Of a DNA stretch of 64,000 bases, positions 4,220 through 9,887 are shown in pieces. Source of the DNA: an uncultured Acidobacteriaceae bacterium (GTDB lineage: Bacteria > Acidobacteriota > Terriglobia > Terriglobales > Acidobacteriaceae); contig CAIMKZ010000098.1 in the NCBI GenBank assembly GCA_903842065.1, positions 124,001-188,000 of the forward strand, given 5' to 3'. A model generated the notes under the pieces. It made no database searches. It worked only from the letters and a program-made list of their open reading frames with translations, and had not been told where the DNA came from. Made by a program: the position numbers and the translations under genes. The stretch's first letter is position 1. Each line of letters begins with the position of its first letter.

Positions 4220-4936
4220 TCAACCTCCCTGAACAGACGAGCTGGAAGACGCGGCCTGAATGTGAATGCCGCATTCTACTTTTTGCCCGGCCCAGCGGCC
4301 CGAACGTGGGTCGTTCGGATCGAGCGGTAGCGTAGTGCAGGGCTCGCAGCCGATCGAGGTATATCCGAGTTCGTAGAGCGGCAGGCGTTCGATGCCGAGC
4401 GACTCGCATGCGTACCAGACTTCGCGCGTCGTCCAATTCGCGAGAGGCGCGAGCTTGAGCACGGTCTTACCACCGGGCAATGCAAAGGGCGCAGACTCTT
4501 CAAGCACAGTGCGGCTGCGAGCCTGTTCGCGGCGCAGGCCGGTGAGCCAGAGGTCGTAGCCCGCAACGGCGCGGAAGAGCGGCTCCACCTTGCGCAGCTT
4601 GCAGCATTGGTCCGGCGCGGTGCGGAAGAGCTGGCCGTGTTCAGCCTCCTGCGCGGCAACGGTCTGCGCCGGTATCAGGTTGACAAGGTTCAGATTCCAC
4701 GCGGCTGCTATCTTGTCGCGATACTCCAGCGTTGCGGCAAAGTGATAGCCGGTGTCGAGAAACAGAATTGGCAGGCTTGGAGCGATCGCGATTGCAAGCC
4801 TGGTGAGGAGAACATCCTCGGCCTGAAAGCTGCACGTCAGGCAGGCGCTGCGGCTGCCGTCGAGAGTGGCGGCAAGAGCGGAACGAACCACTTCGATTTT
4901 TGCTTCAACTTCAGCGTGAATTGCGGCGATGCTCAT
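4220..4936 (-). CDS. cysH: Assimilatory APS (phosphoadenylyl/adenylyl-sulfate) reductase CysH
   Basis: This 238-residue protein reduces activated sulfate to sulfite in the cytoplasm. The PP-loop fold start is visible (TCSFQAEDVLLTRL, residues 34-47), with DTGYHF at 61-66 and the C-terminal ECGIH containing the catalytic Cys222. Cys111-Cys112 and Cys197-x-x-Cys200 are the four ligands of the [4Fe-4S] cluster that marks the APS-using branch; PAPS-using enzymes lack them. So APS is the likely substrate. It is the last intact gene of the cysD-cysN-cysH run, and its start codon meets the cysN stop. A truncated exporter gene follows. Confidence 0.93.
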   Translation of the reverse strand: MSIAAIHAEVEAKIEVVRSALAATLDGSRSACLTCSFQAEDVLLTRLAIAIAPSLPILFLDTGYHFAATLEYRDKIAAAWNLNLVNLIPAQTVAAQEAEHGQLFRTAPDQCCKLRKVEPLFRAVAGYDLWLTGLRREQARSRTVLEESAPFALPGGKTVLKLAPLANWTTREVWYACESLGIERLPLYELGYTSIGCEPCTTLPLDPNDPRSGRWAGQKVECGIHIQAASSSSSVQGG

Positions 4937-6660
4937 CAGAGTCCAGCCCTTTCGATTTGGTGAAGTATGCCAACTTCGCGCAGCAGGCGCAGTACAGCAG
5001 CCCGCGCGCCACCGGAGTTGCTCTCGTCCGCGACGATGCTCCGCCCGCCTGCCTCAGCAGTGAGAGGCTCATCGTGTGTAACGGTTGCCACGATGACAAG
5101 AAACCCTGAGGCGATGCCTGCACTCACTAGCGCATCGAGTAGTTGAGGATTTGCGGCAAAGTCGGCCGATGCGGCGTCAATGCGCTGCGTAACCGCGCCG
5201 GATGCGAAGAGCGACCGCTCGACAGTTTCGATCTCTAGTCGTGTCCCCCGCAGTCGGAGTACACCGCCCTGATGTCCCCAGCGCGAGGCGCGCTCTGTTG
5301 CCAACACCGGCCCTTCGACTTCAGAAGCAAGACCGTCTTCGTCCGAGGTGTCGGGAACCGAGGCGCGGATCATGCCTGCCGCCACAGTGCCGTTGGTAGT
5401 TGGATCGATGAGGATGAATGCGCCGGTCGAGCGGTTCCGGCTGTAGATATCGATCGCAATCGAACGCAGAAGGTCGATCGAGACCGTGCCGATCGCATTC
5501 ATCTCCAGCACGTCCGCAGGCCGATGTTCGAGCGACCCGAGATCGACGGCGTGATCCACATGCGATACAAAAGCGGGAACGGTGTGGCTGGTGTGCTTGA
5601 GCAGATAGCGCCGCTTTGAATCGAGCGGGCGCGCATCCATCCAGACAAGCGCGGCGCTCAACTGGCGGCTTACCTCGGGCTGTTGCTCTTCACCAACGAT
5701 CAAGTCTCCGCGGCTGATGTCGAGTTCGCGATCTAGAACCAGCGTGACTGAGAGCGGAGCCTGCGCCTCATCGAGGTCGCCATCGAAGGTGACGATCCGC
5801 TCGATGCGTGCACTGCGGCGCGAGGGCAGCACCACGATGCTGTCTCCGGCGCGCACCACACCCGATGCGATCTGCCCGGCAAAGCCGCGAAAGTCGCGAT
5901 TGGGCCGCAGAACGCGCTGCACCGGAAAGCGGAATGGCTCGGCTCCCGTTGTCAGCGTGGCAGGCAGCGACTCCAGCAGTTCGAGCAGCGAAGGGCCTTC
6001 GTACCACGGCATGGACGGGGAGCGATGAACGACGTTGTCGCCGGCCAGCGCGGAGACAGGAACGTAGCGCACTTCGACCGCGTTGCCCGTGTCGGCGGCG
6101 ATGTGGCTGAGAACCGCGGAGAAGTCTTCGACGATCGCCTCGAAACGCGAGCGATCGTAGCCCACCAGGTCCATCTTGTTCACCGCAACGATGACATGGC
6201 GCACGCCAAGAAGCGATGCGATGTAAGCATGACGCCGCGACTGGACCAGAACGCCCTTGCTCGCATCGACCAGCACAATGGCAGCATCCGCTGTGGATGC
6301 GCCGGTGGCCATGTTGCGCGTGTACTGCTCGTGGCCGGGCGTGTCGGCAATAATGAACTTGCGCCGCGGAGTGGAGAAGTAGCGATAGGCGACATCGATG
6401 GTGATGCCCTGCTCGCGCTCGGCGCGAAGGCCGTCGGTAAGCAGCGCGAAGTCGAGTTGGCCGGGCGCGGTAGTTCCCTTGCCCTCAATGGACTTCACCT
6501 GGTCTTCGTAGACCGATTGCGTGTCGTAAAGCAGGCGGCCGATGAGCGTGGACTTGCCGTCATCGACGCTGCCGGCTGTCGAGAACCGCAGCAGATCTTT
6601 GCTGCGCTCCTGCGCCAGGAACTCTTCAACTGAAAATTCTGCTTGAGCAAGAGCAGTCAT
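4936..6660 (-). CDS. cysN: Sulfate adenylyltransferase GTPase subunit CysN, with degenerate APS-kinase-like tail
   Basis: The 574-residue protein powers APS synthesis by CysD through GTP hydrolysis. The GTPase signatures are present: P-loop GSVDDGKST at about 30-38, DTPGHEQY at 106-113 and NKMD near 160. EF-Tu-like beta domains follow to about residue 436. The start is the ATG at 6660, which overlaps the cysD stop by one base. CysN alone is usually near 475 residues; here the last 138 residues resemble the APS kinase domain of CysNC fusions (VERSLFASG, LVSAGIASGFLVIVA), but the place of the GLSGAGKS P-loop reads VLRLRGTRLE. The kinase activity is therefore probably lost. Confidence 0.93.
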   Translation of the reverse strand: MTALAQAEFSVEEFLAQERSKDLLRFSTAGSVDDGKSTLIGRLLYDTQSVYEDQVKSIEGKGTTAPGQLDFALLTDGLRAEREQGITIDVAYRYFSTPRRKFIIADTPGHEQYTRNMATGASTADAAIVLVDASKGVLVQSRRHAYIASLLGVRHVIVAVNKMDLVGYDRSRFEAIVEDFSAVLSHIAADTGNAVEVRYVPVSALAGDNVVHRSPSMPWYEGPSLLELLESLPATLTTGAEPFRFPVQRVLRPNRDFRGFAGQIASGVVRAGDSIVVLPSRRSARIERIVTFDGDLDEAQAPLSVTLVLDRELDISRGDLIVGEEQQPEVSRQLSAALVWMDARPLDSKRRYLLKHTSHTVPAFVSHVDHAVDLGSLEHRPADVLEMNAIGTVSIDLLRSIAIDIYSRNRSTGAFILIDPTTNGTVAAGMIRASVPDTSDEDGLASEVEGPVLATERASRWGHQGGVLRLRGTRLEIETVERSLFASGAVTQRIDAASADFAANPQLLDALVSAGIASGFLVIVATVTHDEPLTAEAGGRSIVADESNSGGARAAVLRLLREVGILHQIERAGL

Positions 6661-7610
6661 TAGAAGTAACCCTCCCGCTTCTTCAACTCCATGGAGCCTT
6701 CCTGGTCGTGATCGATAGCGCGGTTGGCGCGCTCGCTGGTTTTGAACTGGATCAGCTCGGCGATGATCTTGGGCAGCGTATCTGCGTCGGAACGGATGGC
6801 GCCCGTGCAAGGGCTGCAACCGAGCGAGCGCAGACGGCACTTGATCATCTGCGGCTTTTCTCCGGGAAGCGCCACGTAGGACTGTTCAATCGGAATCAAT
6901 GCCTCGCCGCGAACAAACATCGGGCGCTCTTTGGCGTAGTAGAGATCGACGATGGGAATGTGCTCCTCGTGGATGTACTGCCAGACGTCCATCTCCGTCC
7001 AGTTGGAGAGAGGAAAGACCCGGATGCTTTCGCCGGGATGAACGCGTGCGTTGTAGAGGTTCCACAACTCCGGACGCTGGTTCTTCGGGTCCCACTGCCC
7101 GTTCGCATCGCGGAAGGAGTAGATGCGCTCCTTGGCGCGGGACTTCTCTTCATCGCGGCGCGCGCCGCCGAAGGCAGCGTCGAAGTTGAAGTGCTTGAGC
7201 GCATCGAGCAGCGCCTGCGTCTTGAGAGCCCCGCAGCAGCGCTTCGTGTCGAGAGCGACGGGATTCGTGCCTGCGGCGATGGCCGGCTCGTTGCGCCACA
7301 CCAGCAGTTCCACGCCCAACTGCTTTGCAATACTATCCCGGAATTCCAGCATCTCGGCAAACTTGAAGCCGGTATCGACATGCAGCAGCGGAAATGGTAT
7401 CGGCCCCGGATAAAAGGCCTTCTGCGCGAGGCGAAGCATGACCGAAGAGTCCTTGCCGATCGAGTAGAGCATCACCGGCCGCTCGAACTCTGAAGCGACC
7501 TCGCGCAAAATATGAATGCTCTCCGCCTCAAGCAGGCGCAGATGGCTGAGGCGTTCGCCAGATAGCGGGTGCGCGGCTGCGGCGGTTTGCAAGGAATCAA
7601 CGACAGTCAA
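6660..7610 (-). CDS. cysD: Sulfate adenylyltransferase small subunit CysD
   Basis: CysD (316 residues) forms APS from ATP and sulfate with CysN. It has the PP-loop [10 protein letters not shown] at about 49-58, [10 protein letters not shown], the [15 protein letters not shown] stretch and the conserved C-terminal part ending KKREGYF. The start is a TTG at 7610 preceded by GGGAGG five bases upstream, which fits the family start; no better ATG is present. It is the first gene of cysD-cysN-cysH. Its long 5' leader (from about 7,889) contains a cysteine-rich leader ORF and a hairpin, suggesting control by cysteine supply. Confidence 0.95.
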
Positions 7611-7683
7611 TTGGACCTCCCGGGTGAATTGAGCGACAGAAGCGACGGGACCGGATCAGCGGCAACAACAACAGGAAACAGGC

Positions 7684-7700
7684 GCGATCCCGACGATCGC
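7684..7700 (-). terminator. Possible attenuator hairpin in the cysD leader
   Basis: On the minus strand, GCGATC (7700-7695) pairs with GATCGC (7689-7684) around a five-base loop. It is followed by a T-rich run, TGTTTCCTGTTGTTGTTG, about 70 bases before cysD. The stem is only six base pairs and the T-run is interrupted, so termination would be weak. It lies between the leader ORF stop and cysD, where an attenuator would be expected. Confidence 0.35.
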
Positions 7701-7811
7701 CGGGGCAGTGGGGCGGACGGATTGGCTGAAGTCAGTCAAGGCTCGCTCGGTGCTGCTGGTTCGTTGTGGGGGAAATGCCGTTTTGGCTACGGCTTAAGAC
7801 GTTTGCGAGGG

Positions 7812-7889
7812 CTAGCGCAGACAACAACAGGGCATGCACACGCTGAAAGCGCGGCAACAGGCCATATTCTTGCGCAAGGGAAACGTCAT
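7812..7889 (-). CDS. Cysteine-rich leader peptide upstream of cysDNH
   Basis: A 25-codon ORF begins with an ATG at 7889 and ends with TAG at 7812. Residues 9-25 read MACCRAFSVCMPCCCLR: six cysteines, including a CC pair and a CCC run just before the stop. It has no ribosome binding site, but a -10-like box ends seven bases before the A of ATG, so the mRNA would start at the start codon. A cysteine-rich leader in front of sulfate-reduction genes is the expected layout for ribosome-mediated attenuation, known from polycysteine leaders in mycobacteria. The role here is inferred from position and sequence. Confidence 0.6.
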   Translation of the reverse strand: MTFPLRKNMACCRAFSVCMPCCCLR

Positions 7890-7895
7890 ATATGC

Positions 7896-7924
7896 ACAAT
7901 ATCATGCGCGCCTTTTGGACGCAA
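7896..7924 (-). promoter_or_regulatory. Candidate promoter of the cysDNH leader
   Basis: On the minus strand TTGCGT (7924-7919) and TATTGT (7901-7896) are spaced by exactly 17 bases. Three of six bases match the -35 consensus and four of six the -10. The predicted transcription start, seven bases after the -10 box, is the A of the leader ATG at 7889. Confidence 0.5.
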
Positions 7925-8006
7925 CCAGTCCAATTATTCCGCCGGGTAAACGCCTGCGCACACAACACTTAACGCCATCGCACAATCCAACACATGGGAT
8001 GCTTGC

Positions 8007-8035
8007 TTGACATTCAACTTCCTCGCCCATACGAT
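8007..8035 (+). promoter_or_regulatory. Strong sigma70-type promoter of the sulfite reductase leader
   Basis: TTGACA at 8007-8012 is a perfect -35 box and TACGAT at 8030-8035 a good -10 box; the spacer is 17 bases. The A of the leader ATG at 8042 is the seventh base after the -10 box, so a leaderless transcript is predicted. The geometry is identical to the minus-strand promoter at 7896-7924. Confidence 0.75.
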
Positions 8036-8041
8036 CCACTT

Positions 8042-8092
8042 ATGGCTGGTTTATTCTGTTGTCGCTTTTGTACGCCACATGTGGGCGCATAG
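8042..8092 (+). CDS. Cysteine-rich leader peptide upstream of the sulfite reductase gene
   Basis: A 16-codon ORF reads MAGLFCCRFCTPHVGA and stops with TAG at 8090. Three of its 16 residues are cysteine, with a CCRFC core. There is no ribosome binding site; the predicted transcription start is the A of the ATG. A terminator-like hairpin follows 49 bases after the stop, directly before the sulfite reductase start. Stalling at the Cys codons when charged tRNA-Cys is scarce would be the expected sensing step. The core shares CCR-F with the minus-strand leader (CCRAF). Function is inferred. Confidence 0.65.
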   Translation: MAGLFCCRFCTPHVGA

Positions 8093-8141
8093 GTGACATC
8101 GGTCCTGTCCTAGTAAGCTAGATTCCGATTCCCTACTTTCG

Positions 8142-8180
8142 CCCGCGTTGCAGCCATGCTGCCGCGGGTTTTCCGTTTTC
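8142..8180 (+). terminator. Intrinsic terminator / attenuator before the sulfite reductase gene
   Basis: CCCGCG (8142-8147) pairs with CGCGGG (8163-8168), and after a TT bulge GCAGC (8150-8154) pairs with GCTGC (8158-8162) around a CAT loop, giving 11 base pairs. TTTTCCGTTTTC follows at 8169-8180. The hairpin lies between the leader ORF and the sulfite reductase ribosome binding site (GAGGTG), which is where an attenuator acts. GGCTG at 8044-8048 is complementary to CAGCC at 8151-8155 and could compete with the stem. Confidence 0.7.
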
Positions 8181-8192
8181 AAGCGAGGTGCA

Positions 8193-9887
8193 ATGAGCGA
8201 AGCAGTCCGGAAAGAGACCAAGGCGCAGCGCGCCGAGCGGCTGAAGCAGGAGAAGAACCCCTGGCAGGCCTTTGATGAAGTACGCGCCTTCGCGCGCGAG
8301 GGCCGCACCAGCGTCACGCAGGAGTGGGCGTCCACTTACTTCAAATGGTGGGGAATCTACACGCAGGGCGACGGCGCGGGTGTTACCGGCGGAAAAGGCG
8401 GCGAGGGCGTAACTTCCGACTACTTCATGATGCGCATCGGCATTCCGAACGGCATCCTGAACGCAAAGCAGTTGCGCGCCATCGGCGAACTGACCTTGAA
8501 GTATGCGCGCAATCTTGCCGACATCACGGTGCGCCAGGCGATCCAGTTGCACTGGCTCACCATCGAGTCACTGCCCGGGATCGTGGATGCGCTCGATGCC
8601 GTGGGACTCTCGCCCCGGGGCGCGTGCGGAGACGTTGTGCGCAACGTGACCGGTTGCCCGCTGGCCGGTGTGGATGCGGACGAAGCCTTCGACGCCTCGC
8701 CTGTAGCGCTTGAGGCGGCACGGCTGCTCACCGCCAATCCTGACTTCTACAATCTGCCGCGTAAGTTCAAGATCGGCATCACCGGCTGCCCCTCCTGGTG
8801 CAATCACCCTGAGATCAACGACGTTGCAATGACGCCGGCGCGAAGCAAAGGCCGCGACGGCTTTTCCATTCGCGTAGGCGGCGGTCTCTCGCGCGAGCCG
8901 CACATTGCCGTTAAACTCGACGCGTTCATTCTGCCCGAGCAGGCGCCGCGCGTTATCCAGGCAGTGGCGGAGCTGTTCCGCGAGCAGCAGGAGTTGCGTG
9001 AGAGCCGCGAGCGAGCACGGCTGAAGTATCTCTTCCTTAAACAAGAGTGGACGGCGGAGAAGTTTCTCGCCGAAGTGCAGTCGAGGCTGCCGTTCAAGCT
9101 TGAGCCGGCCGGCGAAGAACAGGTTCCGTCGGATGTCTACCGCGATCACACCGGCATCCACAAGCAGCGCCAGCCGGGCCTGAGCTACGTTGGCGCATCG
9201 GTGCTGCGCGGAAGGCTGAGCGGCGAGCAGTTGGTCGCAGCGGCCGATCTGGCTGAGCGCTACGGCGACGGATCGTTGCGCACCACCGTGGCACAAAATC
9301 TCATCTTCCTCAACATCCCCACGGAAAAGACCAGGGCATTTGCCGAAGAACTCAACAAGTTGGGCCTCCGCGTGGATGGTTCGTCGTTCTGGCGCGGAGC
9401 CGTGGCCTGCACCGGTACCGAGTTCTGCAAGCTTGCCATTACTGAGACCAAAGGCTTCCTGCGCTGGCTGGTCGACGAAATGGAAAACCGTCTGCCTGAG
9501 TTCGACCAGCAGTTGCACTTGAACGTGACCGGCTGCCCCAACGGCTGCGGACAGCATTGGGTTGCCGACATCGGCGTCGAAGGCAAGAAGATCAAGCACG
9601 ACGGCCAGCTTGTCGATGCTTACTACTTCTGCGTCGGGGGCGGCTTGGGCGAGCACGCGCGAATCTCCCGGCCGGTTGGATACCGATGCCTGGCTACCGA
9701 GACGCCCGATGCGATCGAGCGGCTGCTGCGCGGCTACCTTGCAACGCGGAGCAACGAAGAGACTCTGCGTGCCTGGCTTGCCCGCCACTCCAACGAAGAG
9801 TTGCGCACTCTGCTGGCAGGCGAGACCACAGCAGCGGTCGAGCGCGATCTGCCGGCTGGACGGCCGCCCTCAGGAGCAGGTGAATAA
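8193..9887 (+). CDS. Ferredoxin-type sulfite (nitrite/sulfite) reductase
   Basis: The 564-residue protein belongs to the siroheme/[4Fe-4S] sulfite and nitrite reductase family with two ferredoxin-like half domains. It reduces sulfite to sulfide by six electrons. Cluster ligands are visible as ACTGTEFC followed, 40 residues later, by NVTGCPNGCGQH; siroheme-contact arginine and lysine stretches are seen near VRNVTGCPL and ITGCPSWCNHPE. The start at 8193 has GAGGTG upstream. Sequence alone does not separate sulfite from nitrite reductase, but the divergent cysDNH, the following cysG and the cysteine leader point to sulfite. No flavoprotein subunit is nearby, so ferredoxin is the likely donor. 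Confidence 0.9.
   Translation: MSEAVRKETKAQRAERLKQEKNPWQAFDEVRAFAREGRTSVTQEWASTYFKWWGIYTQGDGAGVTGGKGGEGVTSDYFMMRIGIPNGILNAKQLRAIGELTLKYARNLADITVRQAIQLHWLTIESLPGIVDALDAVGLSPRGACGDVVRNVTGCPLAGVDADEAFDASPVALEAARLLTANPDFYNLPRKFKIGITGCPSWCNHPEINDVAMTPARSKGRDGFSIRVGGGLSREPHIAVKLDAFILPEQAPRVIQAVAELFREQQELRESRERARLKYLFLKQEWTAEKFLAEVQSRLPFKLEPAGEEQVPSDVYRDHTGIHKQRQPGLSYVGASVLRGRLSGEQLVAAADLAERYGDGSLRTTVAQNLIFLNIPTEKTRAFAEELNKLGLRVDGSSFWRGAVACTGTEFCKLAITETKGFLRWLVDEMENRLPEFDQQLHLNVTGCPNGCGQHWVADIGVEGKKIKHDGQLVDAYYFCVGGGLGEHARISRPVGYRCLATETPDAIERLLRGYLATRSNEETLRAWLARHSNEELRTLLAGETTAAVERDLPAGRPPSGAGE

Follow-up and report, generated by a model that had tools for sequence, protein, structure and literature searches.

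What controls the expression of the reductase gene at this locus of a soil bacterium of the family Acidobacteriaceae? The window, i.e., the whole stretch of 64,000 nucleotides analysed, carries a gene of the siroheme sulfite/nitrite reductase family on the forward strand (8193–9887, start codon ATG at 8193), with GAGG at 8185–8188 as its likely ribosome binding site (RBS). On the reverse strand, a divergent cysD-cysN-cysH group is headed by cysD, encoding a sulfate adenylyltransferase subunit (6660–7610), and includes a cysN-like gene (within 4936–6840) and the PAPS/APS reductase gene cysH (4220–4936). By family, the reductase is a NIR_SIR protein; among proteins of solved structure, M. tuberculosis NirA (1zj8) is closest to it in sequence. 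In this alignment, both the Tyr in 'YTQ' and the Cys in 'ACGD' are present in the window protein; at the Cys site, a plant nitrite reductase carries Gly. We take both residues to be marks of the sulfite reductase type. No NCBIfam equivalog cut-off was reached, so 'sulfite reductase' is a call from context; with the cysD/cysN/cysH neighbourhood and the above residues as its basis, the assignment as an assimilatory sulfite reductase is reasonable.

Upstream of the reductase lies a sigma-70-like promoter, TTGACA-17-TACGAT (8007–8035, +), with boxes at 8007–8012 and 8030–8035. It is the sole site of this kind found by a scan across 7500–8300 (shuffles: mean 0.3). Six nucleotides further, ATG 8042–8044 opens a Cys-rich ORF of 16 codons plus stop, MAGLFCCRFCTPHVGA* (8042–8092, +). 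Its three Cys codons, all TGT, are located at 8057–8062 and 8069–8071; the limitation to three counts against an attenuator. The ORF is followed by a terminator hairpin at 8142–8168 (+), the stem CCCGCG-tt-GCAGC / GCTGC-CGCGGG comprising 6 + 5 bp with a 2-nt bulge (−17.6 kcal/mol, or −19.6 kcal/mol with the pair G8141-T8169 added), and by the T-rich tract TTTTCCGTTTT (8169–8179, +). The initial annotation had described this succession of a promoter, an ATG at the expected transcription start, a 16-codon Cys-rich ORF, an 11-bp hairpin, a T-run and the reductase RBS, and had interpreted it as a candidate cysteine attenuator. All the elements are present where it placed them, with the bulge as an additional feature of the stem. 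A longer ORF from ATG 7994 was rejected: it begins 5′ of the promoter, and relatives keep the start at the 8042 position (alignment A1). Riboswitches and T-boxes were also discarded as candidates, with 0 Rfam matches in the window at the gathering score (SAM riboswitches, T-box and other families).

The window by itself would not settle the question. A generic terminator scan found 0 terminators (shuffles: mean 1.1); the bulge and the interrupted T run presumably explain why it missed the hairpin. The leader (8036–8200) is barely more stable than its shuffles (z = −0.66). Judged on these two results, the ORF, the promoter and the hairpin might be unrelated and their succession due to chance. 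Orthologous loci settle the point.

Upstream regions of orthologous reductases were gathered from two sources: a set of 120 family genomes, 76 of which gave a match at E ≤ 1e-60 (loci L001–L070), and 80 named loci, the best 80 of 200 relatives. The family genomes contained 78 places with at least 56% identity, of which 70 were taken (30 + 40) and eight left out. The named relatives are titled Acidobacteriaceae, Acidobacteriales, Acidobacteria or by genera such as Edaphobacter, Granulicella and Terriglobus, and one is titled Opitutia. Removal of two loci with short upstream DNA (L083 and L121) and 18 duplicates left 130 loci, each counted singly without correction for relatedness. Further family loci (L205–L223, several repeating earlier ones) were kept outside the counts; two of them, L212 and L215, have no leader at the reductase.

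A Cys-rich ORF, defined as an ATG-started frame 8–45 codons long that holds 3 or more Cys in 8 codons, no more than 300 nt from the reductase, was found in 105 of the 130 non-redundant orthologous regions. The controls gave a mean of 3.0 (maximum 5) in 10 dinucleotide-shuffled sets, 4/130 on the antisense strand and 3/95 at 1.1–1.4 kb upstream. With the stricter threshold of at least 4 Cys in 8 codons, 72/130 loci were retained versus 0.2 in shuffles. The leader peptides vary from MQGQLCCRRCTLLRARR to MSGSQNFRQMCRCTCCCCCCCCAFVSSDARGLLT. The conservation of the Cys-rich ORF in relatives, suggested as a check along with the initial annotation, is therefore borne out, and short leader ORFs with clustered codons for the end product, as in an attenuator, are present before a gene of the pathway concerned, to which cysD, cysN and cysH also belong.

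The search missed 25 of the 130 loci. Leaders of L015, L017, L096 and L122 begin with GTG or TTG, and that of L020 lies farther upstream. The remaining 20 loci were read one by one; L023 and L142 are two doubtful matches. Ten loci (L009, L027, L036, L044, L049, L099, L125, L141, L147 and L148) have a long frame on the same strand shortly before the gene, which makes it probable that another gene opens the operon; the upstream neighbours were named by eye, save in L125. The leader tracks the operon head: in L027, L036 and L125, where a membrane-protein gene comes ahead of the reductase, the leader stands before that gene. In L141 (Terriglobus roseus), L044, L049 and L147, the reductase follows a PhoU-type frame (by eye) with no convincing Cys leader nearby, and loci of the Terriglobus roseus type may represent a lineage that left the attenuator. 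Cys codons are fewer or spread in the leaders of L007, L016, L029, L081 and L088, the L039 leader lies farther upstream and the L028 leader contains one Cys. No trustworthy leader was recognised by eye upstream of the reductase in L034 and L037. A set of 114 leaders used below includes the probably wrong ORFs of L009, L023, L034, L039, L142 and L147, which were kept in the counts.

The leader frame of L111, which lies some 150 nt ahead of the gene, reads ATG CAG GGC TGA TGC TGT GGC CGA; the stop precedes the Cys codons and the terminator remains. This disrupted leader may reflect a sequencing error, decay or recoding. Two sequenced strains have upstream regions identical to family loci, namely Acidobacterium sp. 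S8 (L106, identical to L006) and Acidobacteriaceae bacterium ZG23-2 (L115, identical to L026). A MAG titled Opitutia (L080) bears a reductase locus of the Acidobacteriaceae type, with one Cys leader on each strand (2617–2670, −, and 2829–2882, +), pointing to either mis-binning or transfer. Eight reductase matches were obtained outside the family. Seven of them were examined as distant homologues of the phylum (L224–L230, 36.5–39.9% identity; G143 was left out), and none has such a leader near the gene; L224 contains one chance-like ORF at −484.

The Cys codons of the leaders are biased. The TGT:TGC ratio is 367:179 (67% TGT) in 107 leaders, 76:692 (10% TGT) in the reductase bodies of L071–L150 and 0:23 in the window's four cys genes. 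We infer from this codon usage that the scarce TGT codon sits where slow decoding would matter.

The position of the promoter relative to the leader ATG was examined using the best TTGACA/TATAAT pair. With the ATG chosen by promoter score, the −10 box ends 6–8 nt before the ATG in 67/107 leaders. Since this ATG had been picked for its promoter, the test was rerun with the 5′-most ATG, and the same spacing was found in 61/105 leaders versus 66/525 shuffled sequences, or in 54/105 versus 12/525 when a promoter score of at least 8 was demanded. With that score and a free choice among in-frame ATGs, the values were 59/105 for leaders and 21/525 for shuffled sequences given an equal choice. SD-like motifs precede 5/107 leaders (6/105 with the 5′-most ATG) versus 63/105 reductase starts. 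The leader ORF looks leaderless, because the promoter ends 6–8 nt upstream of the ATG and SD-like motifs are rare, both features being read from sequence. The promoter spacing fitting leaderless initiation, left open in the initial annotation, thus holds in relatives. In 22/107 leaders, the −10 box is 10–14 nt from the ATG; these are therefore not strictly leaderless, and their 5′ end would lie a few bases upstream of the ATG. In the window's own genome, 24 sites fit two patterns of a promoter followed after 6 or 7 nt by ATG (7 + 17; reversed-pattern controls 3 + 9). Cys-rich short ORFs begin at only two of the 24, the reductase leader and a divergent one facing cysD. Leaderless genes have been inferred in Acidobacteria earlier, with an average of 13.3% over three genomes in the passage cited (PMC3160421).

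A hairpin of −10 kcal/mol or lower with a T tract lies between the leader stop and the reductase in 108/114 leaders versus 24/228 shuffles. Conservation of the hairpin, another proposed check, is thereby confirmed, and an intrinsic terminator, as judged from sequence, is a regular feature of these loci between the leader ORF and the first gene. Alignments of two clades, with 27 and 23 sequences, keep the terminator pairs in 93.6% and 96.0% of cells. The hairpin was also considered as a structure masking the RBS; this was ruled out by geometry, because in the window it ends 16 nt before GAGG. The same measurements bear on translational attenuation, in which translation of the leader would control access to the reductase RBS and not termination. 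A precedent exists in mycobacteria, where, in the passages cited, leaderless Cys-rich ORFs are predicted (PMC4633059), leader peptides before the cys operons of Mycobacterium lack a conserved terminator hairpin (PMC1262725) and translation attenuation is reported (PMC13236596). Furthermore, the cysD leaders of the close relatives L072, L076 and L158 have no terminator. However, the hairpin and T tract that follow nearly all reductase leaders, and the unmasked RBS in the window, make this explanation improbable for the reductase.

Region 2 (8073–8109, + strand; core 8079–8087), which covers the 3′ end of the leader ORF and the bases behind it, is complementary to region 3 (8116–8152, +), the antiterminator partner, made up of the bases ahead of the terminator and the greater part of its 5′ arm. 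Over 108 loci, the region 2/3 duplex has a mean energy of −19.97 kcal/mol versus −15.05 kcal/mol with a shuffled region 2 and −16.59 kcal/mol with region 2 of other loci. The pairing is better than its own shuffle mean in 94/108 loci and no better in 14/108; weak pairing is seen in L130, L132, L134, L139 and L140, which are Edaphobacter and Granulicella loci. When partners were swapped between loci with dissimilar terminators, 1325 of the 1500 sampled swaps paired less well than the native combination. From clade to clade, the antiterminator partner changes jointly with the terminator. Region 2 of one clade has the sequence CTGGCG..GGGG and is similar to the 3′ arm of the terminator, CTGGCGGTGGG (alignment A2), a likeness that can account for the 'GAGRLLT' ending conserved among the leader peptides there. 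In the clade alignments of 27 and 23 sequences, antiterminator cells are paired at 85.1% and 88.0% (slid controls: 29–57%). Column shuffles gave 84.6% and 86.3%, with 91/500 and 18/500 shuffles as high, respectively. Covariation within a clade is therefore weak evidence: many of the pairs are nearly invariant, and column shuffles come close to the antiterminator.

Folding of the window RNA with a ribosome placed at the Cys codons predicts one coherent antiterminator in the pre-terminator RNA (−28.7 kcal/mol). With the ribosome at the stop codon, the 5′ arm is predicted to be largely free (−4.1 kcal/mol) and the terminator can form (−19.6 kcal/mol). Switching at equilibrium by ribosome position does not hold, with just 7/108 loci switching; the mean probability of the terminator is 0.84 with the ribosome stalled, 0.94 with it at the stop and 0.91 with it stalled on a shuffled leader. 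A kinetic switch must therefore be assumed, because equilibrium folding favours the terminator wherever the ribosome stands. In RNA ending before the 3′ arm, the sequestered fraction of the 5′ arm is 0.67 with the ribosome at the first Cys codon, 0.27 with it at the stop and 0.51 with a shuffled leader, a difference that agrees with a kinetic switch but is partly built in, because less RNA is free with the ribosome at the stop.

Similar leaders were sought before other sulfur genes. In the window, a divergent Cys-rich ORF, MTFPLRKNMACCRAFSVCMPCCCLR* (7812–7889, −), precedes cysD and has its own promoter, TTGCGT-17-TATTGT, followed after 6 nt by the ATG. No good intrinsic terminator follows it, the best candidate having −4.6 kcal/mol. 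'SCCCLSxIFDGC' peptides precede cysD in the close relatives L072, L076, L153 and L158, also without a good terminator, and a different output mechanism may act at this leader. An in-frame run ending in ...SCCCCR* with a TTG start (7656–7739, −), 45 nt before cysD, may be due to chance (TTG repeats) or be a second leader. Among 34 non-redundant cysD loci, a Cys-rich ORF was found within 500 nt upstream in 27, some perhaps by chance (L156 and L179), and within 300 nt in 26, 16 of which have a terminator-like hairpin.

A covariance model of 27 reductase leaders only was searched in the 120 genomes and gave 22 matches at E ≤ 0.01 in 17 genomes: 13 at the reductase (four of which belonged to the model by construction), four at cysD, one at cysH, one at a PF03601 gene and three that are probably chance (L244, L245 and L247, E 0.003–0.008). 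The reductase and three cysD matches were assigned by position, cysD L241 and cysH L251 by translation and the PF03601 gene by Pfam. In the own genome, the model found only the reductase leader; strict filters lose weak matches. A PF03601-type gene with a Cys leader precedes the reductase in L027, L036 and L125 (by Pfam in L125, by eye in the other two) or stands apart (L248), which suggests a role of the PF03601 family in sulfur metabolism.

The genes behind the leaders also bear on a further explanation, in which the terminator is constitutive and the leader peptide has another role, e.g., metal or redox sensing, with a signal other than cysteine supply. Poly-Cys peptides can indeed bind metals. 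However, the leaders precede cysteine-pathway genes, and outside the Cys run the peptides diverge widely among clades, whereas the run and the RNA complementarity stay; the favoured, otherwise scarce TGT codon bears on decoding and not on the peptide. Such a role is very unlikely. As for a chance succession of unrelated elements, it is contradicted by the counts of ORFs, hairpins, swaps and promoters and by the model matches given above, and can hardly be credited.

Taken together, the Cys ORF, the promoter spacing, the terminator, the region 2/3 complementarity with its co-change, the TGT bias and the association with sulfur genes make it highly probable that the leader attenuates transcription through a ribosome, in response to cysteine, and that its peptide is translated from a leaderless ORF; the reductase is very probably read only when cysteine is short. 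The interpretation offered by the initial annotation is supported by the Cys codons, terminator and promoter spacing conserved in relatives. In the proposed mechanism, RNA polymerase would start at 8042, the AUG would form the 5′ end and a ribosome would load at once. With ample Cys-tRNA, the ribosome would reach the stop codon (8090–8092) and cover region 2, leaving region 3 free; the terminator (8142–8168) would form and transcription would end before the reductase. With Cys-tRNA in short supply, the ribosome would stall on the TGT codons (8057–8071), region 2 would pair with region 3, holding the 5′ arm of the terminator, and the polymerase would read through. Cysteine would thus act as the signal.

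A broader proposal, to which we give somewhat better than even chances, is that in Acidobacteriaceae a large part of sulfate assimilation, namely the reductase, the cysD operon, cysH and the PF03601 membrane-protein gene, is run by related leaderless cysteine attenuators that moved with the operon heads and originated apart from the mycobacterial ones, the 5′-terminal AUG coupling the ribosome to RNA polymerase from the first bases. A cysteine regulon is predicted across this soil family, and the sequenced strains Acidobacterium sp. S8 and ZG23-2 keep the leader. In the part of a 2010 survey cited here, almost no predicted attenuator of the phylum Acidobacteria had an associated function (PMC2965389); a cysteine attenuator would give a mechanism to this phylum. 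If true, a classical attenuator has been built for leaderless initiation, and the timing of leaderless translation versus RNA polymerase becomes testable.

The separate parts of this system are known elsewhere; the combination of a leaderless Cys ORF with a terminator, and its occurrence in this phylum, were not found described in the literature searched. No description of a cysteine leader in Acidobacteria was recognised among the open-access papers listed, an absence that weighs little because only open-access papers were covered. Among known systems, mycobacterial leaderless polycysteine short ORFs, reportedly tested by Canestrari et al. in 2020, are similar in that a leaderless Cys-rich ORF heads sulfur operons and cysteine is the signal. 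The Acidobacteriaceae leaders differ from them in the conserved terminator with a matching antiterminator, in place of control at translation without a conserved terminator, and in belonging to another phylum. The candidate Cys attenuator uORFC-8-2 of Rhodobacterales likewise has a short ORF containing tandem Cys codons, with an intrinsic terminator behind it; it precedes the cysteinyl-tRNA synthetase gene cysS in Alphaproteobacteria, its Cys codons lie within a stem and the cited part of its description does not mention leaderless initiation (PMC8632094). The gene behind the leader here is, in contrast, a member of the sulfite/nitrite reductase family in Acidobacteriaceae. The attenuators of trp and his operons have in common with the reductase leader an ORF rich in codons for the end product and mutually exclusive antiterminator and terminator structures, which for the reductase leader are predicted ones. 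Their leader ORFs have a ribosome binding site, whereas the AUG of the reductase leader would coincide with the 5′ end of the RNA or be only a few bases away from it.
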